Below are positions 445-34,510 of a stretch of DNA of 64,000 nt, piece after piece (positions within the stretch are counted from its first letter, which is position 1; each line of letters opens with the position of its first letter). The notes below the pieces were generated by a model that saw only the letters and a list, made by a program, of their open reading frames with translations, was not told where the DNA came from and searched no databases. Origin of the DNA: Rubripirellula amarantea (GTDB taxonomy: Bacteria; Planctomycetota; Planctomycetia; Pirellulales; Pirellulaceae); the NCBI RefSeq assembly GCF_007859865.1, contig NZ_SJPI01000003.1:744001-808000 (forward strand), in the 5' to 3' direction. The translations under genes were made by a program, and so were the position numbers.

Positions 445-567
445 ATGGTAGTTGATCTTGGGTACTTCCTTTATGACCGGTTTCGATCCGTGCGTCCGTG
501 ACATCACAGCGTGCTAATTCGCGCACTATACTGAGCGATTGTTTCTTGCGGTTGCAGTATATTGAGT

Positions 568-582
568 TGGCACCTGCTTTGC
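568..582 (+). promoter_or_regulatory. Sigma-54 (-24/-12) promoter of the first universal stress gene
   Basis: TGGCAC-N5-TTGC matches every core position of the sigma-54 consensus with GG and GC exactly 12 bp apart. The predicted transcription start is near 594, about 45 nt before the ATG at 640. Confidence 0.8.
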
Positions 583-639
583 GTGTAGTCCAGTGTTAAT
601 CCCGATCGGTGATTCTTGTAAACAATTCTGGAGACAACG

Positions 640-1605
640 ATGAGAGTTATTCTTGCCAACGACGCTTCCCCTCACTCTCATGCCGCTGCAGACTACTTGC
701 TTGCGATTCCATTTCGCAAACCGATTGATGTAGAAATCGTCGCAGCAGTGGCTCCACCGATGGTCCTGGATACGGGAATGGCCGGGATGCCCGTCGATCT
801 CGGATTGTTCATCAGTGAAGAACGAGATGCCGTTCAGGAACGCGTCGATGCCGCCGCCGACGAACTTCGTACAGACGCTCATCAGAAGCTGTTGCATTCG
901 GTAAATACACACGTGCCGATCGGACCGGCGTCAAGCGAACTGTTGCGTGTGGCGGACGATACCGACGCTGACTTGATTGTGCTGGGGGCGGTAGGACATT
1001 CGGCTCTTGACCGAGTTCTGTTGGGTAGCATCTCTGATTACGTGGCCACTCATAGCGACGTATCGACGCTGGTGGTCCGTCCCAATCGGCGTTCCGAAAT
1101 TCCGCCGGGACTTGAAAAGATCATGATCGCCTTATCCGGCGGCCCCGAAGACCAACGGATGGTGGACTGGTTGCGTCAACTAAACTTAAGACCGAGCGTC
1201 GAAGTTCACTTGGTGCGAATCTTGATTCTTGAAACGCTTTACCGCCAAGACATCCGTCAAAAAGCCTCGGAATTCTGGCAGTCGTTCTCGAACGATGCAC
1301 AGCAGCAGATCCTTGACTTTGAGACTCAGTTACAATCGATGGGTCTGAACACCGAAACACATCTCGTCGAAAGTAGTCATGCGGGCGAAGCATTGATCGA
1401 ATACGCCGAAAACCATGGTTGCGACTTGATCATGACGGGCGATAGCGACAGTGGTTTGCTGACGCGTGTGTTCATGGGCAGCACGTCACGTTATGTGCTG
1501 CGTCATGCTCAATGCAGTGTGCTGACCGTTCGAGACAAGAATGACCGCGCCAAAGCGAAGCAGGAAGCGGCGGAGCAGACACAACGAAGTGGTGCGGCTC
1601 ACTAA
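640..1605 (+). CDS. Universal stress protein, two UspA domains
   Basis: This 321-residue protein has two tandem UspA domains and is probably a cytoplasmic nucleotide-binding stress protein. Domain 1 covers about residues 1-148 and carries the ATP-binding signature G-x2-G-H-S-x3-R-x3-G-S near residues 116-132 (GAVGHSALDRVLLGS). Domain 2 covers about 159-300 and ends in a matching motif (GDSDSGLLTRVFMGSTSRY). A GGAG ribosome-binding site lies 8 nt before the ATG. The gene leads a group with a small membrane methyltransferase 23 bp downstream and a TerB-like gene. Transcription is predicted from the sigma-54 promoter at 568-582. Its relatives in this window are at 7087, 8134 and 12589. The exact physiological role is unknown. 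Confidence 0.93.
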   Translation: MRVILANDASPHSHAAADYLLAIPFRKPIDVEIVAAVAPPMVLDTGMAGMPVDLGLFISEERDAVQERVDAAADELRTDAHQKLLHSVNTHVPIGPASSELLRVADDTDADLIVLGAVGHSALDRVLLGSISDYVATHSDVSTLVVRPNRRSEIPPGLEKIMIALSGGPEDQRMVDWLRQLNLRPSVEVHLVRILILETLYRQDIRQKASEFWQSFSNDAQQQILDFETQLQSMGLNTETHLVESSHAGEALIEYAENHGCDLIMTGDSDSGLLTRVFMGSTSRYVLRHAQCSVLTVRDKNDRAKAKQEAAEQTQRSGAAH

Positions 1606-1628
1606 ACGAAAGATTCCGTTTTCATCGC

Positions 1629-2063
1629 ATGTTCCATTCACTGCTGATCGCCGGTCAATTTGTTTGCGCCGCCGTTCTAGTTCTATCGGCGAGTTGGTGG
1701 CCGATACCTTGGCTTGTCATCGTACTTTCACTTCCCGGAATATTACTGGCAGTTTGGGCTTGGCTTACAATGGGCTTACTTCGACTGCGAATCCATCCGT
1801 CCATTAACGACAACACACGACTGCTCGTGAACGGTCCTTATGCACTCGTTCGCCATCCCATGTACACAGGCCTGCTTTGGTTTGGGGCAGCAACGCTTGG
1901 CAGTGGATTTGCTTGGTGGCGACTTGCCGTATGGGGCGTATTAGCCGTCATACTGGTCATGAAGGCAAACGAAGAAGAACAGTCGATACTGCAGCGTTTT
2001 CCGCAATACCGCGACTACCAAGAGAAGACCGGACAACTCGTTCCGCGACTGGATCGCGTTTAA
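1629..2063 (+). CDS. Isoprenylcysteine carboxyl methyltransferase-like (ICMT/PEMT) membrane protein
   Basis: This 144-residue integral membrane protein has about four hydrophobic segments. The family signature G-P-Y-A-L-V-R-H-P-M-Y-T-G lies near residues 69-81, followed by a conserved acidic stretch (EEEQSILQRFPQYRDY) near the C-terminus. These are the marks of the ICMT/phospholipid methyltransferase family, which binds S-adenosylmethionine at the membrane face. Bacterial members modify lipids or are uncharacterised, and the substrate cannot be read here. It follows the universal stress gene by 23 bp and is probably co-transcribed, so lipid modification under the same stress is a reasonable inference. 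Confidence 0.85.
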   Translation: MFHSLLIAGQFVCAAVLVLSASWWPIPWLVIVLSLPGILLAVWAWLTMGLLRLRIHPSINDNTRLLVNGPYALVRHPMYTGLLWFGAATLGSGFAWWRLAVWGVLAVILVMKANEEEQSILQRFPQYRDYQEKTGQLVPRLDRV

Positions 2064-2144
2064 GATTCGAATACGTTTGGTTCGTTGCACTTCTGCTTTT
2101 CGCTTTCGAGCGTTTTGCTTTTTCACCTGATGTCAAAGCGGCAT

Positions 2145-2159
2145 AGGCATGACCTTTGC
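2145..2159 (+). promoter_or_regulatory. Sigma-54-like promoter before the TerB-like gene
   Basis: AGGCATG-N3-TTTGC has GG and GC 12 bp apart and an intact -12 TTTGC, with A instead of T before GG. The predicted start is near 2171, 35 nt before the ATG at 2206. Confidence 0.55.
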
Positions 2160-2205
2160 TCATCCACTCTGTTCGAAACGCACCCCCACCCACTGAGGCA
2201 ATTCC

Positions 2206-2784
2206 ATGTTTGAACGAGATGCTATTCACGAACGAGGCAAAGCACTGGAAGATGAGTTTTTCCATCGCGTCGATGAAAAACTAAGGGCCGAATTGCGTCG
2301 AAAGATGGAACATGACGATGCCGTTGCGAGACTTCAATCGGCCACCGGTTTTGAAGACGCTCAGTTGCTTAGTCACCTTGTGGATTCCGACTTTACACCG
2401 GCATCGATAGCCGTGATCGCGTTAGTGCCTTTGGTGTTCGTCGCATGGGCGGACGGGTTCATTACCCCTGCGGAACGTCAATCAATCTTGAGTGCAGCGT
2501 TGCATCGAGGGATCAAGGACAATCCAACAGCGTCTGAAGTACTGGAGCAGTGGCTCCACCATCGCCCATCGGACTCGCTTCTGGAACTATGGAAAGAGTA
2601 CGCCATTGCACTAGGGCAAACACTCACACCGACACTTGCAAAGATGCTCCAACAAGAAATCTTAAGATTGGCCACCGCTGTAGCTCAAGCTTCCAAGAAG
2701 CAGTTTAGTCGTGAGAGTATTTCAGCAGCGGAACAAGCTGTCCTTGATAAGATCGCAGAAGTTCCGATCACACCTGCCCAGTAG
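2206..2784 (+). CDS. TerB-like helical protein (paralogue of 9310-9897)
   Basis: This 192-residue soluble, mostly helical protein has the central motif L-V-P-L-V-F-V-A-W-A-D-G-x4-P-A-E-R near residues 73-90. That resembles the AWADG...EER core of TerB-fold proteins, where acidic residues can bind metal. The N-terminus is charged and probably coiled coil. The protein at 9310-9897 aligns with it over nearly its whole length (shared FF..L/V..K, STG/ATG, AWAEG/AWADG, ER..I motifs). Both genes sit next to universal stress genes and behind sigma-54-like promoters. Function is not known; the TerB assignment is tentative. Confidence 0.65.
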   Translation: MFERDAIHERGKALEDEFFHRVDEKLRAELRRKMEHDDAVARLQSATGFEDAQLLSHLVDSDFTPASIAVIALVPLVFVAWADGFITPAERQSILSAALHRGIKDNPTASEVLEQWLHHRPSDSLLELWKEYAIALGQTLTPTLAKMLQQEILRLATAVAQASKKQFSRESISAAEQAVLDKIAEVPITPAQ

Positions 2785-3008
2785 ACATTCCTTTCCACTT
2801 TACTGTTCTGCCCATTTACGAGCCGCGACAAATTCGCGGCGTCATCATCGATCAAGTGAATTCCTCAATTCCATAATCTTCGCAATCGCAGGTAAACGCA
2901 GTTTTCTAAGGTTCAAACGCACTGCCAGTGGGACGTGTTGTGCGACTAGCTGTGACGCCGCATCAACTGGGCAAACCGAGCCCTGCTAACCCACCATTGG
3001 ATATCTAC

Positions 3009-3935
3009 TTAAAAGGTTGTATTGGCAGGAATGCCCTTGGGGGCATCTAGACTCTCCGTGAGCATGCAGATGCTTTCCTGTCGGTCTCCATTGAACCAAC
3101 GGAGAAATTTTTTTCGCTCTCGCTTTGCCAGACACTTTTCTTTTCTACGCAACTTTTTCAGGCATGATTCAAATCGCTTTGAGCATACTTTCCTTCGTAG
3201 TTTCAGCAAGTATTGCGAAACAACAACGCGGTCGTGAATCAGGCCAATGGACTTCTGAATGGAGCACGTTGCGGAGTAGAGCTTTCGCAACGAATCGTTC
3301 GGAATAGACTCTTGCTGTAGTTCGATACAGTAGCGGAGATGCTTCGCTCTCTTACGAAGCATGTGCAATGAATCATGGTCGATCTTCCGGGCCTGGATCA
3401 CCGCCGCGAGCGACCTAGCTGCCTCGGCAACGTGACTTTCTACCATTGCCGAGACTTCGTCGGCAGAAGCCAAATCTAGTGCGACAACGCATGCAACAAT
3501 CCGATTGCTAAGCCTCCTATCGGACGACAATCGCTTCTGTATCTTCTTCAGTGGACCTTGAGCCTGGGCTCGTTGCTTCTTGAGGCATCGCTTGAGCTTT
3601 TTCAGACGACTAGTTTTGCAGTTCTCATAGTAGGCCAGCATGACGTCCAAGTCGCGAGCCTCGCCGGCAGCCGATCGGATTCGCTTCAGCTCTCTCCGCA
3701 ACCACTTCACCAGTTGGGATGGTAGGCGATCTTCATACAAGTCCAATCCCGCAATCGCCTCTCTGGTGGCAACGCGTAATTGGTGCACGTATTCACAATC
3801 TTCGTCGGCGTGCTTAGCCGCCAATGGCAGAAATTGTTGCACATCGCTTAATCGTTTCCCCAATGACTGGGATGCAGACAAATCAGTCGGAGCACAAGTT
3901 TTCATCGTTAGAACGAATATCGAGTTAGCTTTCAT
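3009..3935 (-). CDS. CHAD domain protein
   Basis: This 308-residue protein has a CHAD domain, recognised by the motif V-H-Q-L-R-V-A-T-R-E-A near residues 50-60 and its helical, Lys/Arg-rich repeat (M-L-R-K-R-A-K-H-L-R-Y near 193-203). CHAD domains are helical bundles that bind inorganic polyphosphate and associate with polyphosphate granules. The start at 3935 overlaps the end of the upstream flavoprotein gene by 11 nt; an alternative ATG lies at 3905. It is the last gene of the minus-strand stress group. A polyphosphate link would fit a starvation or dormancy module, but that is inference. Confidence 0.88.
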   Translation of the reverse strand: MKANSIFVLTMKTCAPTDLSASQSLGKRLSDVQQFLPLAAKHADEDCEYVHQLRVATREAIAGLDLYEDRLPSQLVKWLRRELKRIRSAAGEARDLDVMLAYYENCKTSRLKKLKRCLKKQRAQAQGPLKKIQKRLSSDRRLSNRIVACVVALDLASADEVSAMVESHVAEAARSLAAVIQARKIDHDSLHMLRKRAKHLRYCIELQQESIPNDSLRKLYSATCSIQKSIGLIHDRVVVSQYLLKLRRKVCSKRFESCLKKLRRKEKCLAKRERKKFLRWFNGDRQESICMLTESLDAPKGIPANTTF

Positions 3936-4998
3936 TGCGTGCTTGCGAAATCAGAGCTTGCTTTTCCGACGTCTCAAGATGTTCTGTCAACGCGGCGATG
4001 TAGGCAGCACGCTCTTCATCACTGTTGAATTCTAGCGGACGTTGCATTTGCAAGTCGCGAAGCGTTTTCATTTGGCGACGCTCCATGAACTCCACCAACC
4101 CTTCCAACAAGGTTCGAATCACATCAGGTCCTTCGCGGTAAACAGCCGACGTGACCATACCGACATCGGCTCCCGCTAGTAGAGCTTTCACTAGATCGTC
4201 AGCATGACCAATGCCACCACTAGCCGCCAACGGCATTGCTGGACAATAGCTGTGGACTTGCATCAGCGCATCAAGCGACTCACTTTGAACACCGCTATTG
4301 GTCAGCTTCCATTGCCTAGTTAGATTTAGCGTTTCAAGACTGATATCAAGTGCTGGGGCGCGACCATGGAGAACAAGTCCCTGCGCACCAGAAAGCAATT
4401 GGCGTGCAATGTGAGGGACGCTGGTAAAGTTGCGGCCAAGTTTGACAAACAACGGAATCGTAATTGCCGCGTTGATTTCGCGCACCGCATCGCGAATGAT
4501 CGTTTCAATTTCTACTGAATTGTCGTAATCGCGGGCATGCGAATGAGGCACATTGAGTTCGATGGCCGACGCCCCGGCCTCTTCGAGTTCACCCGCGAAA
4601 TCCATCCAGCCGCCAGCCGTAAATCCATTCAAACTGGCAATGATGGGAACTGTCTGCAACGCACTCGCTCGATTGACAAGCGACAAGTACGATTCCGCAT
4701 CTTGGACCGCCCAATTGTGTTCGGTCCGGTTGGCTCGCGCGTAGATTTCTTTCTCTCGTTGGGTAATCGTGCGTCCCGAAGCGATGCTCCATCCGATGAC
4801 TTGCTCTTCGAATAGAGAAGGCAACACGATTGCGCCAACGCCGGCATTTTGCATCGCCAGTCGAGATTGCTCGCTTAGCGTCATCGGGCACGCACCGACG
4901 ATTAAAGGAGATTGAAGCGAGAGGCCACCAAAATTGGTCAGCAGAGAGGTTGTCATCTTAGTATCCATGTGAATGGGGTAACGATTGAGTGAAGTCAT
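3925..4998 (-). CDS. Dihydroorotate dehydrogenase-like flavoprotein
   Basis: This 357-residue TIM-barrel flavoprotein resembles class 1 dihydroorotate dehydrogenase. The N-terminus has the family pattern L-x-S-P-L-I-V-G-A-C-P, a central substrate/FMN segment reads A-S-A-I-E-L-N-V-P (about 140-148), followed by F-V-K-L-G-R-N. The phosphate-binding glycine motif is A-S-G-G-I-G near 255-260. Members lacking the pyrimidine-pathway context are often found beside universal stress genes and are annotated only as DHOD-like, so pyrimidine synthesis should not be assumed. The start at 4998 overlaps the stop of the upstream gene as ATGA, which supports translational coupling and this start. Confidence 0.85.
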   Translation of the reverse strand: MTSLNRYPIHMDTKMTTSLLTNFGGLSLQSPLIVGACPMTLSEQSRLAMQNAGVGAIVLPSLFEEQVIGWSIASGRTITQREKEIYARANRTEHNWAVQDAESYLSLVNRASALQTVPIIASLNGFTAGGWMDFAGELEEAGASAIELNVPHSHARDYDNSVEIETIIRDAVREINAAITIPLFVKLGRNFTSVPHIARQLLSGAQGLVLHGRAPALDISLETLNLTRQWKLTNSGVQSESLDALMQVHSYCPAMPLAASGGIGHADDLVKALLAGADVGMVTSAVYREGPDVIRTLLEGLVEFMERRQMKTLRDLQMQRPLEFNSDEERAAYIAALTEHLETSEKQALISQARNES

Positions 4999-6554
4999 AA
5001 GTGATCGGCAATCTTGATCGCGTCCGGCACGTCTGCGAGATAATCAAGTTCGTTTCCAGAGAGCGGTTGGCGGGAAACAAGTTGATCCTCGAGAACACGA
5101 AGATCGGCATCGGACGCGTCGTTATTCAAAGCCATGCGATTGGCAATGCGATCGCGAAGCGTTTGAGGATCTGCTCGACAATCTAAAATCGCAAACGGAA
5201 CGTGTTCTTGACTTGCCAGCTTAAGAAAACGCTGACGGTCATTTCGACGCAAGAACGTCGCGTCAACGATGACGCTATAACCAGCCCGAACAATATCTTT
5301 CGCAAGTGATGCAAGTCGCTCATAGGTGCGTTCATCGGCCGTGTCACTGTACATCTCAGCTTGCAACTGCTCTGAAGGGCGTTGGGTTTCTGAGAGACCA
5401 AACAACCGCTTGCGTTCAAGATCGCTGCGCAAGCGGAATGCGCTGTGCTTTTGCACGACCGATTCGCTGAGGGTCGTTTTGCCACTACCGCTTACGCCAT
5501 GCGTGATCCACAACTGAGGGCGACTGTCCATCGTGAACTTTTGGGCCAAACTGATGTGCTGCCGAGCATCGGCAATCGAAGCGTGACGTTCGCTGGAACT
5601 CAGTCCGCTCTGCTTAGATCGCATCGTTGCAACCCAAGATCGCACTAAGGAGCGATAAACTAGAAACCAACGAAGAATGACTAGCGACTGATAATCGCCC
5701 GTTTCTTCCAGGTAAGTATTGATGACGGTATGCGACAAATCTTGGTGTCCTCGGGCGGCAAGGTCCATTTGTAAGAACCCCACATCGCTGAGAACGTCGA
5801 TCCACCGCAAACGTTCGTTGAACTCGATGCCATCGAACGGAACGAGTCGTCCGTCCCAAAAAACAATGTTCTCGGAATGCAGATCGCCATGGCATTCGCG
5901 AATAAAACCATCGGCAACACGACTGCCGAACACCTGCAGATGCTGCTTGAAGTAGTCATCCGACCAATCATGCAATTCCGCTAGAGTGGATGCCGTTTGG
6001 GAATCTGTGTTGTCCTTGAGTTGAGTTGCGATCTGATGAAAATTTTTGACCAGATAATCCGTCCATCCGGATGCAAAGCTCGCTTCACACTTCGTTGCAC
6101 CGCAATGAAAGTAAGCGATCGTCTTCGCTAATTGTTTCAGATCCGATGTCGTCAATTCCCCGGTCTCAATGCGTTCGCTAAGCAACGACCCTTTAGCAAA
6201 CCTTCTCATTTTCACTGCGTATTCAACAGGCGGCGCAGAAGTCCCCAAACACAACTGCCCACGTTCCCAACCGATGGATTCAACGCCTAGGTACAGATCG
6301 CTTGCGTATCGGCTATCCAGCGCCAATTCCTTTTCGCAAAACTGCTTTCGCAGTTCGAGGGTGCTGTAATCCAAAAAATCGGTTCGAAGCGGCTTCTTGA
6401 TCTTGTAGGCAAAATCCCCGGCAAGAAACACCACTGAAATATGCGTTTCGTGTACTTCGACTTCGCCCGCCGTCGGGTGCGGATAGGCGGCGTCCCGGGT
6501 GAGTCCCTCGATCAATTGCTCCATGCTCACGGAGTTCTCAGTTGATACAGTCAT
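4995..6554 (-). CDS. Aminoglycoside phosphotransferase-like / P-loop kinase fusion protein
   Basis: This protein of about 519 residues joins two kinase-type domains. The N-terminal part (about 1-340) has a phosphotransferase fold with catalytic-loop motif C-H-G-D-L-H-S-E-N and a following V-P-F-D-G-I-E-F. The C-terminal part has a Walker A sequence G-V-S-G-S-G-K-T-T-L and resembles small-molecule P-loop kinases (zeta toxin/YjjG-like AAA_33). This architecture is shared with mycobacterial Rv2004c, a DosR-regulon protein. The ATG at 6554 is chosen; a TTG at 6569 and an ATG at 6524 are also possible. It overlaps the next gene by 4 nt. A weak sigma-54-like site lies at 6625-6639. The substrate is unknown; antibiotic resistance is not implied. 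Confidence 0.88.
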   Translation of the reverse strand: MTVSTENSVSMEQLIEGLTRDAAYPHPTAGEVEVHETHISVVFLAGDFAYKIKKPLRTDFLDYSTLELRKQFCEKELALDSRYASDLYLGVESIGWERGQLCLGTSAPPVEYAVKMRRFAKGSLLSERIETGELTTSDLKQLAKTIAYFHCGATKCEASFASGWTDYLVKNFHQIATQLKDNTDSQTASTLAELHDWSDDYFKQHLQVFGSRVADGFIRECHGDLHSENIVFWDGRLVPFDGIEFNERLRWIDVLSDVGFLQMDLAARGHQDLSHTVINTYLEETGDYQSLVILRWFLVYRSLVRSWVATMRSKQSGLSSSERHASIADARQHISLAQKFTMDSRPQLWITHGVSGSGKTTLSESVVQKHSAFRLRSDLERKRLFGLSETQRPSEQLQAEMYSDTADERTYERLASLAKDIVRAGYSVIVDATFLRRNDRQRFLKLASQEHVPFAILDCRADPQTLRDRIANRMALNNDASDADLRVLEDQLVSRQPLSGNELDYLADVPDAIKIADHL

Positions 6555-6624
6555 CAGACAAACTTTCAAGTTCGAAGGTCAGAGGCCGAAGGTTCCACGG
6601 AGGAAAGACCCTTGAGCGACGTGT

Positions 6625-6639
6625 GCATGCGGTTTGCCT
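6625..6639 (-). promoter_or_regulatory. Weak sigma-54-like site before the kinase-fusion gene
   Basis: On the minus strand AGGCAAACCGCATGC has GG and GC 12 bp apart and GGCA plus TGC, but lacks the TTGC and the full TGGCAC. The downstream genes may instead be read through from 9100. Confidence 0.3.
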
Positions 6640-6658
6640 CGTTATCGGTACCGCCGCG

Positions 6659-7078
6659 CTACTCGACATCCAGTTTCATAAACTCAACCCGGTGCTTTCG
6701 CATATAGGAATGGCACTCGACACAGCGAACGGTGAGGGCAACGTAGCCAAGCGTCGCACGATGAATATCTTTGTCATCAGCGGCTTCGATCACCAAATCC
6801 GCAGCACGTTGAAAGTCGCGACTTTGGGCTGCGTACTCTTTTGTTTGCAACACGTTCCAACCAGATTCTGTGCTCAGCAATCGAAGTGCCCGGGCATTGA
6901 TTTTAATGGTGTCGAATTGCTCGAGCGTTAGGCCTTCGAGAATGGCCTTTGACTTATCGAGTTTCAAATGCATCAGCGGAGTGATCTTGCTGGGTTGATC
7001 TAGAGGAGGATCTGCCGCAGTCGCCACCGCCACAAGTACCGTCGCAATCGGAACAACATAAAGTAGAAAGCGTTTCAT
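6659..7078 (-). CDS. Secreted c-type heme protein, single CxxCH
   Basis: This 139-residue protein has a hydrophobic signal sequence (MKRFLLYVVPIATVLVAVATA) of about 21 residues. One heme-attachment motif, C-V-E-C-H, lies near residue 118, close to the C-terminus as in cytochrome c-prime-like four-helix proteins. The preceding helices and the R-C-V-E-C-H-S-Y context fit that fold, but the family is not certain. A GTG at 7090 would overlap the upstream universal stress stop; the ATG at 7078 gives a cleaner signal peptide. It is the third gene of the minus-strand stress group, which suggests a redox or gas-sensing periplasmic role (inference). Confidence 0.8.
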   Translation of the reverse strand: MKRFLLYVVPIATVLVAVATAADPPLDQPSKITPLMHLKLDKSKAILEGLTLEQFDTIKINARALRLLSTESGWNVLQTKEYAAQSRDFQRAADLVIEAADDKDIHRATLGYVALTVRCVECHSYMRKHRVEFMKLDVE

Positions 7079-7086
7079 CAAGGGTC

Positions 7087-8061
7087 TCACAATAGAGGCA
7101 AGGGTTCGTCTTCTTCAATCAACAATGCATTTGCAACTTGGATGGGTGACACAAAGCCATCCGGTTTCAAGGCCAGCAGAGAGCATGTCACGTCGGAGAT
7201 CACCGTCTCGGCAGTGTTTCCGATTAAGAACCCTGCAACGCCAGTTCGGCAGACGGTCCCCATCACCATTAGGTCCGCCTCAATCTCATCCGCAACACTT
7301 CGAATCACTGAGGCAGGCGTCCCCTGGCGCAGATGCAGATGAACGTCGTCCGACTTGGAATACGGGGCTTGCAATAATTCATCGATTGCCTTGTTGACCT
7401 TCGCCTCATGCTCTTTGCGAAGTAGCTCAACAGCGTCGTCCCCGGCGTTTCGACGCACGGCGTCCTCCATCCAAATTTGCCATGCACCCACGACGTGCAA
7501 TTCCGCTTGGTCACGCTGAGCAATTGAGTAAGCGAGTTCAAGGATTTTGCGGTTCAAATCCGCATGTTTCGCATCCAAAGAATCAACGTCGATGGCTGCC
7601 AGGACGCGATCGAATTCACCATGAATTTGCGGTTTCAGCAACCATACTGGGCATGGGCACAGTCGTAGTAAAGACTTGGCAATGCTGCCAAATAGCCTGC
7701 CAGCCGGTGAGAATCCGTCTGCTGTTTTGACCACCAAATCGTATTGGTCACTGACAACTTGACGAGTGATTTCCGTCGCCGGATCGCCAATGGCAACCAG
7801 CACATCGAGCTGCAGTCCAGTGTCAGATATCTCGCTGGCAAGATCTAGTAAACGGCGACGGCGATCCGCTGCGACGAGTTTTTCAAGCTCGTCCGGTTTC
7901 GCAACATCCGTCATCAAACCCAATGCCTTAGGGATTGGCTTGACAACGTCCATCAATGTCAGTGATGCGTTGTTTTCGAGGGCTAACTGAGCAGCACGTG
8001 TGACAGCAACTTCCGGCTGCTCGGTACCCGCATAAACTAGGATGTGCTTAAAGTTTCTCAT
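7087..8061 (-). CDS. Universal stress protein, UspE-like tandem domains
   Basis: This 324-residue cytoplasmic protein has two UspA domains. Domain 1 (about 1-150) lacks the usual GxxGHS and reads K-T-A-D-G-F-S-P-A-G-R-L-F-G-S, as in UspE proteins that probably do not bind ATP through that site. Domain 2 (about 155-305) ends M-G-T-V-C-R-T-G-V-A-G-F-L-I-G-N. The cysteine pair in R-L-C-P-C-P-V-W is also UspE-like. It lies 72 bp downstream of another universal stress gene on the same strand, with no promoter seen between, and slightly overlaps the possible GTG start of the heme protein, so the three probably share a transcript. Confidence 0.92.
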   Translation of the reverse strand: MRNFKHILVYAGTEQPEVAVTRAAQLALENNASLTLMDVVKPIPKALGLMTDVAKPDELEKLVAADRRRRLLDLASEISDTGLQLDVLVAIGDPATEITRQVVSDQYDLVVKTADGFSPAGRLFGSIAKSLLRLCPCPVWLLKPQIHGEFDRVLAAIDVDSLDAKHADLNRKILELAYSIAQRDQAELHVVGAWQIWMEDAVRRNAGDDAVELLRKEHEAKVNKAIDELLQAPYSKSDDVHLHLRQGTPASVIRSVADEIEADLMVMGTVCRTGVAGFLIGNTAETVISDVTCSLLALKPDGFVSPIQVANALLIEEDEPLPLL

Positions 8062-8133
8062 GTCCGGTGGCCTCAGTTGAAACGGCTTGTTTGAAATTTA
8101 CGAAGAAGATCAATTGACCTATTCATCTTCTAT

Positions 8134-9054
8134 CTATTGCGACGCTACTGTTGATTTTGATGTTCTTTTCTTAACGCCCTCGATCATTCGATTGCGAGTG
8201 ATCCACACACTGCACGGAGCATGGCGAAGAACGAATCGAGTCATGCTCCCCATAAGCATGCGGTTCAAACGGGTCCGAGGCGTTTCGCCGACAATCAACA
8301 AGTCAGCCCGGTTGGATTCGACAAACTTTACTAATCCTTCCCCGACGTGATCACCGTTAACAATTCGACCGATAGCGTTCGGAGCAACCTCGCGAATCTG
8401 CTGCGCGGCATCATCGACTGCATGCTGGGTAAGACGCTGGTCGTCCTCGCTCTTTCCGCCGGCTAGCGCCTGAAGTGCCGGTGTGGTGGCGACAGTAACG
8501 ACGTCAACTTTAGTGCTGGATCCCCAGCGAAACTCCGCAAACTCTTCCAATGCAGCTTGCGCTGGCCCCGTTTCGTCGTACCCAATCGTGACTTGCAATG
8601 GGTGATTCTGCGTTGACGCTTGGTTCGGACGGACCACAAGCGTGCTGCAGGGTGCATGGGTGGCGATGTAGTCACTGGTGCTTCCCAGTAACACCCGAGC
8701 GATAGCCGAATGTCCCGTTGCTCCGATTACCACTAAATCAGGACGAACCTCATTGGCGACCTGTACGATAGTTTCAGCGGGCAGTCCTTCACGAACGACC
8801 TGCCTCAGACTCACGTTGGCCCCCTCGAACATTTCGACAACTGACTTGTACGCTTGGTCAGCCTGTTTGCGTTCCTGAGCTAAACACGCTGCAATCCAAT
8901 CGCTGTCGAGTAAAGTTTTCTCGCGACCAGACACGAAAACAGCCGTCACAACGATTAGCTCTAACTGCCCATCGTGAGGAAGCCTTGCAACAAACCTAGC
9001 CGCCTGAAGGGCTGGTTCAGAACCGTCGGTGGCAAGCAGTACTTTTTTCATCAT
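8134..9054 (-). CDS. Universal stress protein, two UspA domains
   Basis: This 306-residue tandem UspA protein starts at the ATG at 9054, preceded by GGGAGA; a longer frame to 9087 would lack a ribosome-binding site. Domain 1 has the ATP-binding motif G-A-T-G-H-S-A-I-A-R-V-L-L-G-S. Domain 2 has G-E-T-P-R-T-R-L-N-R-M-L-M-G-S and the typical R-H-A-P-C-S-V-W. It is first in a minus-strand group followed by the UspE-like and heme genes. A sigma-54-type promoter at 9100-9114 fits a start near 9088. It is divergent from the TerB-like gene at 9310, which has its own sigma-54-like site. Confidence 0.93.
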   Translation of the reverse strand: MMKKVLLATDGSEPALQAARFVARLPHDGQLELIVVTAVFVSGREKTLLDSDWIAACLAQERKQADQAYKSVVEMFEGANVSLRQVVREGLPAETIVQVANEVRPDLVVIGATGHSAIARVLLGSTSDYIATHAPCSTLVVRPNQASTQNHPLQVTIGYDETGPAQAALEEFAEFRWGSSTKVDVVTVATTPALQALAGGKSEDDQRLTQHAVDDAAQQIREVAPNAIGRIVNGDHVGEGLVKFVESNRADLLIVGETPRTRLNRMLMGSMTRFVLRHAPCSVWITRNRMIEGVKKRTSKSTVASQ

Positions 9055-9099
9055 GGTCTCCCGTGGGTTTCCAGAGAGGTAACGCAATCAGTAGTGCAC

Positions 9100-9114
9100 G
9101 CATTCGTGATGCCA
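9100..9114 (-). promoter_or_regulatory. Sigma-54 promoter of the 9054 universal stress gene
   Basis: The minus strand reads TTGGCATCACGAATGC, with GG and GC 12 bp apart and an intact TTGGCA. The predicted start near 9088 leaves a 34-nt leader. It is back to back with the plus-strand site at 9237. Confidence 0.7.
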
Positions 9115-9236
9115 AACCAAGAATCGGTGAAAAACCATACATCCAGCGTGCATGTTGCGCGCCATAACGCACAAATGAGCGTGGACGTTCCACTTCCGCT
9201 CGGATGTTTAATACCCGCAGCAGTGATTGCAGTGAG

Positions 9237-9251
9237 TGGCCCACCCTTTGC
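9237..9251 (+). promoter_or_regulatory. Sigma-54 promoter of the 9310 TerB-like gene
   Basis: TGGCCCACCCTTTGC has GG and GC 12 bp apart and an intact TTTGC. The start would be near 9263, 47 nt before the ATG. The 122 bp between this and the site at 9100-9114 could hold one shared enhancer. Confidence 0.68.
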
Positions 9252-9309
9252 TGCACGAGTGTTCCATAAGACTTGGCTCGTTCTGCATATCTCAGCAATA
9301 GATCTCATC

Positions 9310-9897
9310 ATGAAGAAATTGAAACACCAATCACCGCTAAGTAAACACGCTGAGGCGGAACACTTTTTCGCTGAGCTAGAAGAAAAGATCGTTCAAAAGC
9401 TGCACGCGGAAGCGACCAGCGATGATGGGCGCCGTGAACTGTTACGCAGCACTGGCATTCACGACGAAAAGCTACTCGACGAAATGGCGAAGCTCGGCAT
9501 CACTGCCGATGGCGTGATCGCGCTACGATTGATTCCGCTAGTGTTGGTCGCTTGGGCAGAAGGAGTCGCTGATCAACGGGAGCGGACCGCGGTGATTGCT
9601 GCTGCGACTCGTTTAGGTATACACGAAGCGACGACGGCTTGGATCTTGCTGGACCGTTGGCTGACGAAACATCCCCCAGGACTTTGTGTTGATGCGTGGA
9701 AGCGATACACGCATGAGACTTTCGCAAAGATGTCGAGCACAGCTCAAAACCGGCTCGTTGAATTGACGCAGAAACAGATGATCGAAGTTGCAAAATCTTC
9801 AGGCGGCCATCTGGGTATTGGAAAGATTTCCAAGAAAGAGGAAGCCATCATTCATCAAGTGGTCACCTCGATGCGACTTCAAGCAATGCTGCAGTAA
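9310..9897 (+). CDS. TerB-like helical protein (paralogue of 2206-2784)
   Basis: This 195-residue soluble protein is a clear paralogue of the one at 2206. The shared core here reads I-P-L-V-L-V-A-W-A-E-G-V-A-D-Q-R-E-R near residues 77-94. It begins with Lys-rich residues and a helical segment E-H-F-F-A-E-L-E-E-K. The longer upstream frame from 8974 is rejected because it overlaps the divergent universal stress gene and the promoter. No strong ribosome-binding site is seen before the ATG at 9310. Function is unknown; association with universal stress genes twice in one window suggests a conserved partner role. Confidence 0.75.
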   Translation: MKKLKHQSPLSKHAEAEHFFAELEEKIVQKLHAEATSDDGRRELLRSTGIHDEKLLDEMAKLGITADGVIALRLIPLVLVAWAEGVADQRERTAVIAAATRLGIHEATTAWILLDRWLTKHPPGLCVDAWKRYTHETFAKMSSTAQNRLVELTQKQMIEVAKSSGGHLGIGKISKKEEAIIHQVVTSMRLQAMLQ

Positions 9898-9928
9898 CGC
9901 GGATGCGGCGGTGCATTTCGAACACTTG

Positions 9929-10960
9929 CTAAGCCTCAGAAAGCTGCTCTTCGTACTTGGCTCGAAAGTTTTTGATATCGCCGGTATGCCCCATCACGAT
10001 CACAACCTCGCCAGTTTTGAACGTGTGCATAGCATTCGGGTTAAACGTTAATGCTCCCGTAGCATCTTGAATCGCAATCATCAACAGGTTGTGATCTCGG
10101 TGCGCGTTGGTAGCTCCAACGGTTAGTCCCGCAAGCTTCCCGTGCTCGCTAATGCGCAGCTCATCAAGTTCAAGATCCGCAAATTCACGCTGCGAAACCA
10201 ATTCAATCAAGTCTGCAGTAGTGGGACGAGTGATAACACGAGCCATCTGCCTCGACCCGACCACCGTGGGCATGACGACTCGATTCGCACCGGCTTGGTG
10301 CAGTTTCTTTTCGGTACTTACCTGGTCAGCTCGGGCAACGATTTGAAGATTGGCGTTCAAGTTTCGAGCCGTCAACGTTAAAAACACGTTTTCAGCATCA
10401 CCCGACAAAGCCGCGACCAAAGTACTGGCGCGATCGATCCCGACGGACATTAACGTTGACTCCTCCGTCGCATCGCCGGTCAGGCAAGCGTACCCGAGCA
10501 TGTCAGCTTCACGCAGTCGATCCGGATTGCTTTCGAGAATAACCGCTTTGCGGCCCTGCGATTTAAGCTCTTCAGCTAAGCACTGTCCCATTCGGCCGAA
10601 GCCGCAGATGATGACGTGTCCCTTCATGTTGGCAATTTCTGCAGTCATACGTCGAAGTCCGATCAGACGATCAATCTCGCCCTCCAAGAGAAGTTGAATC
10701 AAGCCGCCGAAGGTATAGGCGGCTGCCGACATGCCAAACAGAATGACCATGACGGTAAACACTTGCAGTATTGGGGAAAGCGAACTTGATTCGCTGTACC
10801 CCACGGTGGAGATCGTGATGACGACCATCCAGACCGATTCCAGCCACCCATAGTTGCCCAAGAATCGGTAACCGATGACGGAAACCCCAAAGACCACCAA
10901 CAACAGTACTCCACCGCTGGCGATGCGTTGAAGCGGCGACTTGAGCTTGCTTTTAATCAC
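9929..10960 (-). CDS. Potassium channel with RCK (TrkA-N/TrkA-C) domains
   Basis: This 343-residue protein is a two-helix K+ channel subunit joined to regulatory RCK domains. The first membrane helix covers about residues 14-33. The pore loop has the selectivity filter T-V-G-Y-S near 52-56, and the second helix covers about 65-90. The RCK_N Rossmann domain starts at G-H-V-I-I-C-G-F-G-R-M-G near 113, and a TrkA-C domain follows from about 250. This is the MthK/Kch type, gated by a cytosolic ligand. No sigma-54-like site was found in the 254 bp upstream. Its place inside the stress module suggests membrane-potential or osmotic adjustment. Confidence 0.93.
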   Translation of the reverse strand: MIKSKLKSPLQRIASGGVLLLVVFGVSVIGYRFLGNYGWLESVWMVVITISTVGYSESSSLSPILQVFTVMVILFGMSAAAYTFGGLIQLLLEGEIDRLIGLRRMTAEIANMKGHVIICGFGRMGQCLAEELKSQGRKAVILESNPDRLREADMLGYACLTGDATEESTLMSVGIDRASTLVAALSGDAENVFLTLTARNLNANLQIVARADQVSTEKKLHQAGANRVVMPTVVGSRQMARVITRPTTADLIELVSQREFADLELDELRISEHGKLAGLTVGATNAHRDHNLLMIAIQDATGALTFNPNAMHTFKTGEVVIVMGHTGDIKNFRAKYEEQLSEA

Positions 10961-11214
10961 TCGCGGTGTAAATCTTTCAATGGACTTGCTTCACGGCCCA
11001 ACGCTGGAAACATCAGTGATCTAGGTATCGTTCGTAAAGCACTTTGTCAGTCAATCGTTCGTACAACGATGGACGTTAAGCATCCTCAGGTCGCTAATGT
11101 CGAGTCAATGGTTTAATCGATGTAAGTGAACTTGCATTCGCGCGCGACCGCGACGATGTTTTGACTTCCAATCGTATCATGCGTGTGGGTAAAGGTGTTG
11201 GCCCGAAAGTAATG

Positions 11215-12327
11215 TCATGATTCATTTCGCATGCTAGGAAGCTGAACCAACACTTCACTGCCGACATCGTAGTGACATACGAAATCAATCGTGCCTCCAT
11301 GAGCCGCGACAATACGGCGACACAGCGATAACCCAAGTCCAGTCCCTTGCTGCTTTGTTGTGAAGAATGGTTCAAACGCACGTTTGGCAATGTCTTCGCC
11401 AATCCCTGAACCGTAGTCGCGAATCCGAAGTTCAAGCCCTTCTCCACTCGGTGCAGTGCTTGCATGGAAGACGCACCGGATTAGGGCGAGCTCGGGACTC
11501 GCCTGAATCGCGTTCTTTAGCAGATGATAAATGACTTGTTGCATTCGAGCTTGGTCGACATAAGCACGCTGGCATACGCTATCGCACTCGACTTTCAGTT
11601 GCACTGAGTACTGAGCAAGTTCGATCGAAAGTTCAGTCATGGTATCACCGCACAACTTAGCCAAGTCCACATCACTTCGACGAAGCGTGATCGGAGAGGC
11701 ATAGCTTTTTGCTTCTTCGTAGTTTTTATGCAAGTCCGCCAGTGCCGCGCGAACACGGTCGGTAAGTTGCAACGAACTCGATTCCTTCGGCAGATCAAGC
11801 TCTATCAAAGCAAGACAGGATTGAGCGCGTTGCATGGCATTTCGACACCCGTGGGCGAGTCCCGAAACCATCTCTAGAACGGCGGATAGTCGCTCGTCCT
11901 CGATTCGCTTTGCAAGATCAGCATCCTTTAGCGGAAAATTCATTTCACCGAAAAACACAATCTCATCCAGAGTCTTCGACAAACGATGCGACGTGAATCG
12001 AACGGGAAAGATGCTGCCATTTTTTCGTCGGCCAACAAGGTCCCATTGTTTCCCATCGTACTCACCCGATCGTTGCCCAAAATGTGACAGGGGGCACGCT
12101 TGGTGTGCACCAGCGTCACTCGCTACTTGTCTCGAGAACAGGACGTCAACGACCTTTTCTTGCAATTCGGCTTCGCTATATCCAAACCATGTCAGTGTCA
12201 CACGATTCACCCACTGAATTTCCCCCAACAGATTCGTTATCAAGACCGCTGCGGGCGATAATTCTAACAACCTACTTGCGAGACCATTCTGGCGAATGCT
12301 TGCGGTTCGTGTTTGCGTTTCTGACAT
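11215..12327 (-). CDS. Orphan PAS-domain sensor histidine kinase
   Basis: This cytoplasmic kinase of about 370 residues has an N-terminal PAS domain (about 15-130, with V-L-I-T-N-L-L-G-E-I-Q-W-V-N) and an NtrB-like transmitter. The phospho-acceptor box reads G-L-A-H-G-C-R-N-A-M, where the residue after His is Gly rather than the usual Glu/Asp. The ATPase boxes are L-L-K-N-A-I-Q-A-S (N), D-Y-G-S-G-I-G (G1) and G-T-G-L-G-L-S-L (G2). There is no membrane helix and no response regulator next to it. ATG 12327 is preferred; GTG 12339 is also in frame. Its promoter at 12366-12380 is sigma-54-like, so it may sit inside the regulon it controls. Confidence 0.88.
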   Translation of the reverse strand: MSETQTRTASIRQNGLASRLLELSPAAVLITNLLGEIQWVNRVTLTWFGYSEAELQEKVVDVLFSRQVASDAGAHQACPLSHFGQRSGEYDGKQWDLVGRRKNGSIFPVRFTSHRLSKTLDEIVFFGEMNFPLKDADLAKRIEDERLSAVLEMVSGLAHGCRNAMQRAQSCLALIELDLPKESSSLQLTDRVRAALADLHKNYEEAKSYASPITLRRSDVDLAKLCGDTMTELSIELAQYSVQLKVECDSVCQRAYVDQARMQQVIYHLLKNAIQASPELALIRCVFHASTAPSGEGLELRIRDYGSGIGEDIAKRAFEPFFTTKQQGTGLGLSLCRRIVAAHGGTIDFVCHYDVGSEVLVQLPSMRNES

Positions 12328-12365
12328 CTTTTTCTGCACGGCTTTTTGTTAAAACCGACTGTTTT

Positions 12366-12380
12366 GCAATCGCGATACCA
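12366..12380 (-). promoter_or_regulatory. Sigma-54 promoter of the PAS histidine kinase
   Basis: The minus strand reads TGGTATCGCGATTGCA, with GG and GC 12 bp apart and an intact TTGCA. The start would be near 12354. It faces away from the plus-strand site at 12521. Confidence 0.68.
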
Positions 12381-12520
12381 CTGGCGAAGATGATGCAAAG
12401 AATTCACAGATTGAAGCACCCAAGATCGGTTACAGATAGCAACAATCCACCCCACGGTGACATGAACTTAGTCGACAATGGCTAGGTCGCCCGATGTGGA
12501 TGAAGTTTGCAGATTAGGCT

Positions 12521-12535
12521 TGGTATGAAAGCTGC
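12521..12535 (+). promoter_or_regulatory. Sigma-54 promoter of the 12589 universal stress gene
   Basis: TTGGTATGAAAGCTGCA has GG and GC 12 bp apart, with TGGTATG and CTGCA as allowed variants. The start would be near 12547, 42 nt before the ATG. About 140 bp separate it from the divergent site at 12366. Confidence 0.62.
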
Positions 12536-12588: not shown

Positions 12589-13485
12589 ATGAAAGTTCTA
12601 TTGCCGATTGATGGATCGGACAACGCAGACGAAGCCATCGGTTTTGTACAATCGCTCGCCGAAGACAACACGGTCGATGTGACGATCATGCACGTCACCT
12701 ACGATCCAACGGGCTACGCATTGCAACCATGGCTGGCGGAATGGTCGGAACAAGAGAACCAACGTAGCAAAGCGATCTTGGATCAAGCACAAACTGACCT
12801 GGATGCATCATGCAACTCAACGTCGATTGTTCATGGATCGGGGGCGATCGTGCCATGCATCTTAGAAGAATCCAAGAAATCGCAGGCCGACCTGATTGTT
12901 ATCGGAGCGAAGGGGCACTCGGCCATCGGACGATTGTTGCTGGGAAGCGTATCGGACAGCGTTGCCAGTCGCGCCGAATGTTCCGTCGTTGTTGTACGAC
13001 CACAATCCGACACTTCCCAACCAGCGAAGATCGTGCTCGGCTTTGACAGATCGCGTGCGTCGCGTGAGGCCGTCGCCGAAATGTTAGAACTGAATTGGCA
13101 AAGCGACACTAGAGTCGAGGTGGTTAGCGTGGTCCTTAATCCGTACGTCTTCGTCGGGGAAGGTTACATGGCAAACCCAATGACCGTCACTCCCGAACAA
13201 ATCGCGCCGATTACAGAGACGGCCGAGCGAATGTCTAGCCGGCTTGCCGATACGTTCCCTCATACGACGTCTCGCATCCAGATTGCAGATCATGTCGGCG
13301 AAGCTATCGTCCAGGCTGCAGAGTCCGACAATGCGGACTTAATCATTGTTGGTGACAGTGAACATAGCCGGCTTGGAAACTTCTTGCTCGGCAGCACCTC
13401 GAAGTACGTCCTGCGCCACGCACCTTGTAGCGTCTGGATTTCTAGGCACCATTGGAAATCATCCGAATCAAACGATTCGGCATAA
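12589..13485 (+). CDS. Universal stress protein, two UspA domains
   Basis: This 298-residue tandem UspA protein begins M-K-V-L-L-P-I-D-G-S-D-N. Domain 1 has the ATP-binding motif G-A-K-G-H-S-A-I-G-R-L-L-L-G-S near residues 105-119. Domain 2 ends G-D-S-E-H-S-R-L-G-N-F-L-L-G-S and R-H-A-P-C-S-V-W. The start has a good GGAGA-type ribosome-binding site (GCGGAGAAACGACG). It is a single-gene unit convergent with the PDZ gene. A short CCGAATC/GATTCGG hairpin lies at 13463-13480 inside the last codons, without a T tract. Transcription is predicted from the sigma-54-like promoter at 12521. Confidence 0.93.
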   Translation: MKVLLPIDGSDNADEAIGFVQSLAEDNTVDVTIMHVTYDPTGYALQPWLAEWSEQENQRSKAILDQAQTDLDASCNSTSIVHGSGAIVPCILEESKKSQADLIVIGAKGHSAIGRLLLGSVSDSVASRAECSVVVVRPQSDTSQPAKIVLGFDRSRASREAVAEMLELNWQSDTRVEVVSVVLNPYVFVGEGYMANPMTVTPEQIAPITETAERMSSRLADTFPHTTSRIQIADHVGEAIVQAAESDNADLIIVGDSEHSRLGNFLLGSTSKYVLRHAPCSVWISRHHWKSSESNDSA

Positions 13486-18081: not shown

Positions 18082-18707
18082 GATTGCTTCTCCATTGCCA
18101 AACGCAGATGTTCGATTGCCCTAAGCCAAAGCATTCTGACCGCGCCCGAGGTACGTTCCATTCGATCTGCCACTTCGGCGAAATCAAGCCCTTCGAGATG
18201 CCGAAGAACAATGACGGTCCGATAGTCTGAGGGTAACTGTTCGAGTGCAGCAGCTAGTTCCGATAGCGTTTCTTGATGCCCCGCTTCTGAAGCAGGCGAA
18301 CGGTAAGCGTCCGCAGCAAGTGCTGAAAGTCGCTGATGCGAATGATCTACGGAAGCGGAAAGGCTTCCTACAAGTTGTTCGCGATGGACGCTACGTTTTG
18401 CGGCCAACATATGAGTTCCTACGGCGTTTGCGATATTGTGTACTAAGACTTGACGGAGCCAACCGGTGAATTCATGAAGTTCGAGACCATGGAAATTTGC
18501 AATGTCGCGGTGCGCCTCCATCAGTGTCTCTTGAACTACATCAGACGGGCTGACCCGGTGCTGGATTCGCTTGTCTAAATGAGTGCGTGAAAGGACGTGC
18601 AGGTAACCTGAAAAGCTTGCTAAAAGGCGATCAAGACTCTCGGTATCGCCGGAGATAGCCCGGCGGAACAAATCGAGTCTTTCTTCGGGATCTCCACAAT
18701 CTGTCAC
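18078..18707 (-). CDS. ECF-type RNA polymerase sigma factor
   Basis: This 209-residue protein has sigma region 2 (about 15-90, with H-R-V-S-P-S-D-V-V-Q-E-T) and region 4 (about 150-205, with L-P-S-D-Y-R-T-V-I-V-L-R-H-L-E-G-L). It lacks regions 1 and 3, as expected for the ECF group, and matches the planctomycete type encoded with Ser/Thr kinases. It overlaps the kinase start by 4 nt. No anti-sigma gene is adjacent, so the neighbouring membrane kinase may supply the control, which is inference. The start at 18707 follows AGGGAGTGTTAGGTG on the minus strand. Confidence 0.92.
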   Translation of the reverse strand: MTDCGDPEERLDLFRRAISGDTESLDRLLASFSGYLHVLSRTHLDKRIQHRVSPSDVVQETLMEAHRDIANFHGLELHEFTGWLRQVLVHNIANAVGTHMLAAKRSVHREQLVGSLSASVDHSHQRLSALAADAYRSPASEAGHQETLSELAAALEQLPSDYRTVIVLRHLEGLDFAEVADRMERTSGAVRMLWLRAIEHLRLAMEKQS

Positions 18708-34235: not shown

Positions 34236-34358
34236 GTCTCCATTCTATTCAATTCGTGCCGGTGGAATATCCGCCGTCGGTGGCGAAAGGAACGTCACGC
34301 ATTGCCGAATTGACGACTGGGCCTCGGGGAATACCATTGGTTTTGCAAATATTGGGTT

Positions 34359-34373
34359 TGGCACGTGGTCTGC
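34359..34373 (+). promoter_or_regulatory. Sigma-54 promoter of the DUF1559 gene
   Basis: TTGGCACGTGGTCTGCA has a perfect TTGGCACG -24 element and CTGCA at -12, with GG and GC 12 bp apart. The predicted start near 34385 leaves a leader of about 126 nt before the ATG at 34511. It is next to an NtrC-type activator operon. Confidence 0.78.
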
Positions 34374-34510
34374 ATACCTGTCGCACTCAAGGTCAAAGAC
34401 TTCGAATTGAAGCGACCATAGGGAATAGAGCCGCGTCGAATACAGCCGCATTGGAGCGAGCTGCACAAAAGCGAATCTGAACAGCCGAGCCGATTGAAAG
34501 AGGGAACTCT

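Follow-up and report, generated by a model that had tools for sequence, protein, structure and literature searches.

Several universal stress protein (Usp) genes of the mycobacterial DosR regulon are induced by low oxygen under heme sensor kinases, and DosR itself is a NarL-type regulator that acts without sigma-54. In the rhizobial FixLJ system, the cbb3 oxidase (fixNOP) genes lie beside the heme-PAS kinase gene and the output is FixJ, which carries a LuxR-type helix-turn-helix (HTH). In Myxococcus xanthus the NtrC-like regulator NmpR regulates a Usp gene, and the portions of PMC11841059 consulted, which also mention the mycobacterial hypoxia-induced dormancy regulon, describe an Nmp regulon that includes Usp, CBS protein and cbb3 oxidase genes and is tied to low oxygen. 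Homologues of nmpSTU were noted in Planctomyces sp. SH-PL14 in 2018 (parts of PMC6211767), and a 2025 computational survey found Usp genes (COG0589) to be over-represented among the sigma-54 targets that it predicts for Planctomycetia (parts of PMC12316311). Here we analyse a stretch of 64,000 nucleotides from Rubripirellula amarantea (the window, G000:C3:744001-808000, from a genome of 6.95 Mb in 9 contigs) and a module of Usp, TerB-like and associated genes within it. The module is probably one regulon, in which sigma-54 promoters are served by an NtrC-type regulator encoded on contig C2 that acts on an upstream palindrome at the end of a heme-PAS oxygen relay. This regulon most likely responds to low oxygen.

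As far as the Nmp system is described in the parts of the literature cited above, it is the closest in architecture. Both systems combine an NtrC-type sigma-54 regulator with a receiver-kinase hybrid (NmpS), a double receiver (NmpT) and a heme-based kinase, both have known or predicted targets that include Usp, CBS protein and cbb3 oxidase genes, and both use palindromes built from GYGC and GCRC halves. The sensors differ, NmpU being a protoglobin kinase whereas the planctomycete relay has a FixL-type heme PAS, and so do the sites, GCGCA-N5-TGCGC for Nmp against GTGCG-N4-CGCAC here, where the gap between half-sites is one base shorter. Unlike those of NmpRSTU, the predicted targets here centre on several tandem Usp and TerB-like proteins. 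Because sensor domain and site differ, we do not class the relay as NmpRSTU, although it would work like it. A FixL-type heme-PAS kinase and adjoining cbb3 genes are shared with FixLJ, but the output here is an NtrC-type sigma-54 activator encoded in the relay operon and not FixJ. The likeness to DosR lies in Usp genes and heme sensing, with a NarL-type regulator independent of sigma-54 there and an NtrC-type regulator working with sigma-54 here.

The original prediction, made from the window alone, proposed that the genes of the Usp/TerB-like module share a sigma-54 regulon and listed seven sites, each with GG and GC 12 bp apart. All seven are present where it placed them; their scores, like every site score below, rest on an approximate sigma-54 weight matrix.

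568..582, plus strand: sigma-54 site TGGCACCTGCTTTGC, predicted to serve usp gene 640-1605; score 15.7
2145..2159, plus strand: sigma-54 site AGGCATGACCTTTGC, predicted to serve TerB-like gene 2206-2784; score 17.3
6625..6639, minus strand: candidate sigma-54 site AGGCAAACCGCATGC, not supported; score 5.7
9100..9114, minus strand: sigma-54 site TGGCATCACGAATGC, predicted to serve a six-gene operon; score 10.6
9237..9251, plus strand: sigma-54 site TGGCCCACCCTTTGC, predicted to serve the second TerB-like gene; score 12.9
12366..12380, minus strand: sigma-54 site TGGTATCGCGATTGC, predicted to serve the PAS kinase gene; score 11.1
12521..12535, plus strand: sigma-54 site TGGTATGAAAGCTGC, predicted to serve usp gene 12589; score 13.6

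Six of these sites score 10.6-17.3 and keep a TGGCAY/TTGC context around the 12-bp GG-GC spacing. The bare consensus TGGCNCN5TTGC with at most one mismatch is no evidence by itself, since its count in the window (23) is close to that in shuffled sequence (20.3). Weight-matrix matches behave differently. In 1.24 Mb of the genome, those scoring at least 14 occur at 135 per Mb upstream of genes against 8.1 per Mb inside genes (about 17-fold), those scoring at least 12 at 202 against 34 per Mb, and those scoring at least 10 at 299 against 112 per Mb, so that the upstream excess grows with score; an equal density inside genes, the outcome the original prediction had named as speaking against it, is not what is seen. 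Given the intragenic density at such scores, the sites at 9100 and 12366 would be insufficient on score alone, and it is conservation that carries both. Along contig C3, a site of at least 10.5 stands just upstream of 18 of the 689 genes, and the maximum of five such genes per 14-gene stretch is reached only by two stretches spanning the window cluster. A single RpoN of the genome passes the cut-off (C2:1667420), and the sigma-54 activator domain is matched 19 times, strongly in 17 cases. The shared regulon is thus well supported, with 6625 removed from its promoters: the best scores upstream of orthologues of the gene downstream are 4.1, -0.6 and 1.2, and we reject the site because none of the three orthologues has one and because the gene lies inside the apparent operon led by the 9100 promoter. 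The count of genes served (three of four Usp genes, both TerB-like genes and the PAS kinase gene) was right all the same, the fourth Usp gene being internal to that operon.

Conservation in relatives follows the promoters. Relatives have 38 matches to the promoter-led genes, and 22 of these carry a site of at least 10 upstream (by gene, named by its lower coordinate: 640, 1/2; 2206, 9/19; 8134, which leads the operon, 4/5; the second TerB-like gene 9310, 3/4; the PAS kinase gene 11215, 2/3; 12589, 3/5), where a value of 1.3 for usp 8134 at locus L028 reflects a misplaced start, the real site there scoring 9.9. Matches to operon-internal genes have such a site in 6 of 25 cases, all six being distant homologues of 32-44% identity. 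Among orthologues of at least 50% identity, a site is found for 13 of 16 of the promoter-led and 0 of 18 of the operon-internal genes, including 0 of 3 for the gene behind 6625. As a control, 7.6% of 250 other open reading frames in the relatives' loci have a site of at least 10 and 1.2% one of at least 12. The stretch that separates usp 8134 from TerB-like 9310 was aligned from four loci in three genomes. Both sigma-54 sites can be recognised by eye in all four, although the program misaligned the plus-strand site in one locus and two of the sites score just 9.3 and 9.9; most other sequence in the alignment has drifted. Orthologues of the PAS kinase promoter score 13.7, 12.7 and 7.8.

Upstream of many of these promoters lies a palindrome, GTGCG-N4-CGCAC, mostly 33-98 bp before the -24 element. 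It was scored with a matrix trained on 24 relatives' sites, orthologues of own-genome sites among them, for which the 99% level of the null is 8.7. Two copies stand in the module.

511..524, plus strand: palindrome GTGCTAATTCGCGC, 44-45 bp upstream of the GG in the 568 site; score 17.3
9159..9172, no strand: palindrome GCGCCATAACGCAC, common to the divergent 9100 and 9237 promoters at about 45 and 65 bp; score 12.8

The counterparts of 9159-9172 in relatives stand 34-46 and 63-94 bp from the two promoters. For usp 640, the orthologue at L147 has a site of 14.0 with the palindrome at 43 bp, and that at L030 keeps the palindrome (42 bp) with a degraded site (4.3). Promoters of TerB-like 9310 orthologues score 9.3, 15.1, 17.3 and 13.6 with palindromes at 63, 63, 63 and 93 bp, those of usp 12589 orthologues (58-62% identity; L031, L145, L146) score 13.6, 11.4 and 12.1 with palindromes at 33-34 bp, and six relatives carry a palindrome 76-96 bp upstream at their 2206 loci (L029, L030, L032, L035, L038, L042).

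GYGC-N6-GCRC occurs in 15 of 28 upstream regions, a set that contains the discovery loci (N6 was first seen by eye in four) and one placeholder entry that is no promoter, whereas other spacings occur 0-4 times and random stretches have N6 in 0.5% of cases. In 23 further loci, 8 of which adjoin discovery loci in the same genomes, N6 stands upstream of 13 sigma-54 matches against one on the wrong side, other spacings again giving 0-4. It is therefore N6, and not the Nmp-type N7, that is enriched. Distances from palindrome to promoter in the module loci cluster near 34, 44, 52-55, 63 and 76-96 bp, roughly a helical ladder (42 distances, R 0.46, permutation p 0.0024); these distances are not all independent, because divergent promoters share palindromes and contribute two each. 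A set of 32 other distances, up to 140 bp, gives R 0.43 at a 10.5-bp period, a value taken without a permutation run, and by period gives 0.04 at 10.0 bp and 0.42-0.43 at 10.5-11 bp.

The candidate activator emerges from relatives in which the parts are clustered. In G001 and G003 an NtrC-type regulator gene lies together with Usp and TerB-like genes, and its best match in the own genome is C2:1492566-1493984 (about 60% identity). The second match, C3:312346 (about 54%), was dropped as the regulator, the C2 gene being the better orthologue. The C2 protein has a receiver (REC), a sigma-54 activator domain with the GAFTGA motif and a Fis HTH. Among 22 genomes of the same genus, a regulator of at least 59% identity and a TerB-like gene occur in the same 9, and neither in the other 13, an arrangement expected once in 497,420 by counting that ignores phylogeny and incomplete assemblies. 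At 29 loci around regulator homologues, palindrome and promoter stand in the right order in 17, in the wrong order in none, and in reversed sequence in none. In 15 of those 17 the promoter lies immediately upstream of the regulator gene and points towards it, which suggests that the regulator activates its own gene. Homologues of the window PAS kinase (32-45% identity) are encoded just upstream of the regulator gene at L219, L222 and L223, so the window kinase may act on the regulator although that is encoded on another contig.

A strict joint pattern, GTGCN6GCRC-N(26-56)-TGGYAYN6TGC, carries the link across the genus. It matches three times in the own 6.95 Mb, at the 568 promoter, the 9100 promoter and C4:61488. 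In the genus it gives 26 matches in the 9 regulator-bearing genomes (3, 7, 2, 1, 4, 3, 2, 4, 0) and 3 in the other 13. Of the 26, 15 lead Usp genes, 4 the regulator gene itself, 2 genes of CxxCH-type proteins (one unclear) and 1 a dikinase-type gene; no gene was assigned for the remaining 4 or for the 3 in regulator-less genomes. Six of the Usp leaders are at loci newly fetched for this comparison, all confirmed by Pfam, and one of these genes is followed by that of a CBS protein. Over 119 genomes of the family the strict pattern has 31 matches in 25 genomes (9 backwards), against 11 in 10 genomes (11 backwards) for N7 spacing. The match at C4:61488-61557 (L252) precedes a pyruvate-phosphate-dikinase-type gene and then another dihydroorotate-dehydrogenase-like gene.

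The signal is suggested by what surrounds the regulator. Its gene is the last in a four-gene run that encodes a receiver-kinase (371 aa), a PAS-PAS kinase (550 aa), a double receiver (255 aa) and the regulator (472 aa), and this run is divergent from a cbb3 oxidase operon (Pfam: COX1-FixO, FixG and a metal P-type ATPase). The PAS-PAS kinase matches the heme PAS of FixL (PDB 1d06, 5.4e-34), and its HDxYL motif, which we take to carry the heme histidine, is kept in four of four. A Usp gene 16 kb from the relay is preceded by a site scoring 15.7, which lies about 55 bp ahead of the Usp domain, and the gene of a truncated haemoglobin is 20 kb away. In G001 (L029) a single cluster contains the relay, a PAS kinase of the window type, the regulator, the channel and the TerB-like, Usp and operon genes; the channel homologue adjoins the regulator gene there. 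The cluster of Roseiconus nitratireducens (L193) unites the genes of relay kinase, hybrid and regulator with those of haemoglobin, TerB-like and Usp proteins; no double receiver was found in it. An H-x2-C motif, present in the PAS domain of the window PAS kinase and of three homologues (four of four), may have a heme, metal or redox role. FixL likeness is not claimed for this kinase, because its PAS domain alone has no relevant solved-structure match.

From these architectures we infer the following course of events. The FixL-type heme-PAS kinase would sense oxygen, the double-receiver protein would serve as a phosphate sink, and the receiver-kinase hybrid would hand phosphate to the regulator. 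The regulator would then bind GTGCG-N4-CGCAC and its AAA+ domain would open the sigma-54 polymerase complex, with the window PAS kinase as a probable second, self-amplifying input. As oxygen falls, the regulator would induce the Usp, TerB-like and CxxCH proteins, the operon enzymes and the channel, and probably the neighbouring cbb3 oxidase too. We judge it an even question whether this extends to a low-oxygen or dormancy programme of a Pirellulales-type group, run by a sensor-swapped Nmp-type relay with a helical-ladder palindrome, self-activation and a second, H-x2-C PAS kinase. Such a programme would be centred on tandem Usp sets and a TerB-like pair, its parts lying here on three contigs.

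Several observations weigh against a single regulon under the C2 regulator. Three of the six promoters have no palindrome in the own genome (2145, where the best score is -1.1, 12366 and 12521; 6625 has none either), and the PAS kinase promoter lacks it in three of three relatives as well. The promoter of the relay operon itself has its best palindrome 130 bp away, with a weaker one (9.3) at 37 bp, and the cbb3 side of the relay has no clear sigma-54 site. The palindrome alone is found at 24 of 29 regulator loci but also at 10 of 29 when reversed, and in the own genome 5 of 17 other activator loci have it nearby. Background controls for the joint pattern likewise give more matches in the 9 genomes of the genus that have the regulator than in the 13 that lack it (backwards, 6 against 1; N5, 4 against 2; N5 backwards, 7 against 1), and one of the nine, G021, has the regulator and no strict match. 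Beyond the genus, where 38 relatives were scanned, strict matches are not in excess (10, against 16 backwards and 12 for N5); many of the pairs at regulator genes there are spaced by at least 86 bp, beyond the reach of the pattern. The co-occurrence of regulator and TerB-like gene may partly reflect one clade, and the two are unlinked beyond the genus: regulators of 51-57% identity are widespread in the order, also without a TerB-like gene, and of 8 non-genus genomes with a TerB-like gene, 3 (G022, G025, G031) have no regulator above 44%. Among 18 newly named TerB-like loci, a good number of which are distant, a sigma-54 site of at least 10 is present at only 2 (L188, L193), and the same two are the ones with palindrome-promoter pairs among 21 new loci scanned. 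It is the lack of a strict-pattern excess outside the genus, together with the higher controls in regulator-bearing genomes, that tempers our confidence.

The promoters without a palindrome have either lost the element by decay or are served by another activator. In the latter case 2145, 12366 and 12521 would answer, for example, to the paralogue at C3:312346, which is 55% identical to the C2 regulator and is accompanied by a kinase and several promoter matches (C3:313881-342063), and the module would integrate two signals. We find this doubtful, since relatives' orthologues of 2206 and 12589 carry the palindrome at ladder distances and no other dyad is common to six palindrome-less promoters compared, a comparison of low power. 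Somewhat less probable still, and in our view unlikely, is a real regulon that responds not to oxygen but to redox state, to nitric oxide or to energy status, the heme PAS then having a different ligand. Gases other than oxygen can be sensed by heme PAS kinases, and the H-x2-C motif of the window PAS kinase could be redox-sensitive; the close FixL match, the divergent cbb3 oxidase, the nearby truncated haemoglobin and the M. xanthus precedent argue for oxygen instead. That the sites arose by chance, with the genes transcribed from ordinary promoters, is highly improbable: the bare consensus is indeed no commoner than in shuffles and the two weakest sites score like many intragenic ones, yet conservation, upstream enrichment, palindrome spacing and in-genus co-occurrence all tell against it.

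The proposed low-oxygen regulon under the C2 regulator goes beyond the original prediction, which had the regulon and neither the upstream palindrome, the regulator nor the oxygen link. Its description of the system as possibly undescribed holds only in part, since the tie between sigma-54 and Usp genes is anticipated by the COG0589 enrichment (parts of PMC12316311) and by the NmpR-regulated Usp gene (parts of PMC11841059). The parts of PMC12316311 consulted assign to the Usp genes neither an activator nor an upstream element or a signal; FixL, cytochrome and tellurite are absent from its main text, TerB not being among the words searched for there. Among the matches listed in open-licence PubMed Central, no publication title concerns this regulon in planctomycetes, nor its element, regulator or sensor swap. 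The last three may be new, whereas sigma-54 control of planctomycete Usp genes had already been predicted in print. The regulon yields a testable regulator, DNA element and signal for Usp genes in a phylum about whose regulation of stress responses not much is known, and offers a reason for their place among the predicted sigma-54 targets of Planctomycetia. It would show one relay architecture driven by different heme sensors, give TerB-like proteins a physiological context, and be this group's counterpart of known low-oxygen survival programmes.

The genes of the module are as follows.

640..1605, plus strand: tandem universal stress protein, 321 aa; Pfam Usp 1.7e-42
1629..2063, plus strand: PEMT/ICMT-type methyltransferase, likely in an operon with usp 640; Pfam PEMT 1.9e-6
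2206..2784, plus strand: TerB/DUF533-like helical protein, 192 aa; weak family matches among homologues
3009..3935, minus strand: CHAD-domain protein, last operon gene, overlapping the neighbouring gene; Pfam CHAD 3.4e-29
3925..4998, minus strand: dihydroorotate-dehydrogenase-like protein; Pfam DHO_dh 6.9e-11
4995..6569, minus strand: APH-like and AAA_33 kinase protein, 524 aa; AAA_33 1.4e-39, APH 0.0012 (below cut-off)
6659..7090, minus strand: small CxxCH-motif protein, 143 aa; Pfam Cytochrom_C_2 just 0.068
7087..8061, minus strand: tandem universal stress protein, 324 aa, operon-internal; Pfam Usp 8.1e-41
8134..9054, minus strand: tandem universal stress protein leading the apparent six-gene operon; Pfam Usp 2.8e-50
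9310..9897, plus strand: TerB/DUF533-like protein, 195 aa; DUF533 0.0026 (below cut-off)
9929..10960, minus strand: ion channel with TrkA-N domain; TrkA_N 3.5e-32, Ion_trans_2 7.2e-9
11215..12339, minus strand: PAS histidine kinase, 374 aa; HATPase_c 2.1e-22, PAS_9 1e-6
12589..13485, plus strand: tandem universal stress protein, 298 aa; Pfam Usp 7.3e-51

The apparent minus-strand operon runs usp 8134, usp 7087, CxxCH, APH/AAA_33, dihydroorotate-dehydrogenase-like and CHAD. The methyltransferase gene has no sigma-54 site of its own in two of two relatives. The label TerB-like, taken over from the original prediction, is a loose one, as neither window protein matches Pfam TerB at E 0.1 and homologues do so in part: among 21 (E 0.01), 5 match TerB, weakly, and 9 match DUF533. 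A structure model of 2206-2784 is fairly confident and helical (mean pLDDT 81, pTM 0.67), and a fold search against solved structures gave no match at E 0.001. Relatives of TerB-like 9310 occur in 17 of 60 genomes, the own included. A scan of named genomes with an alignment of the TerB-like family found Rubripirellula, Rhodopirellula, Roseimaritima, Roseiconus and strain SV_7m_r among its matches, where a single TerB-like protein as query had found none. Further members are present in records of Myxococcota, Roseomonas-type and other origin, which lack the sigma-54 site.

Elsewhere, the top sigma-54 site of the window (34358-34374, plus strand, 18.1) precedes a DUF1559/pseudopilin-type gene in the region 31489-35521 and lies close to the genes of a second NtrC-type regulator (31489-32898) and of a HAMP kinase (32895-34235); no GTGCG-N4-CGCAC palindrome is found at this site. 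Outside the window, C3:310140-342063 holds a second dense group of sigma-54 sites with the paralogous regulator 312346, a kinase and a single receiver. Of five promoters tested there, 342063 has the clearest palindrome (11.4) and 332141 has one of 8.0 at 108 bp, and in G003 three genes of this group adjoin the usp 640 orthologue. Separate from the module, window positions 15265-18707 encode a large Ser/Thr kinase with TPR repeats beside a sigma-70 region 4 protein.

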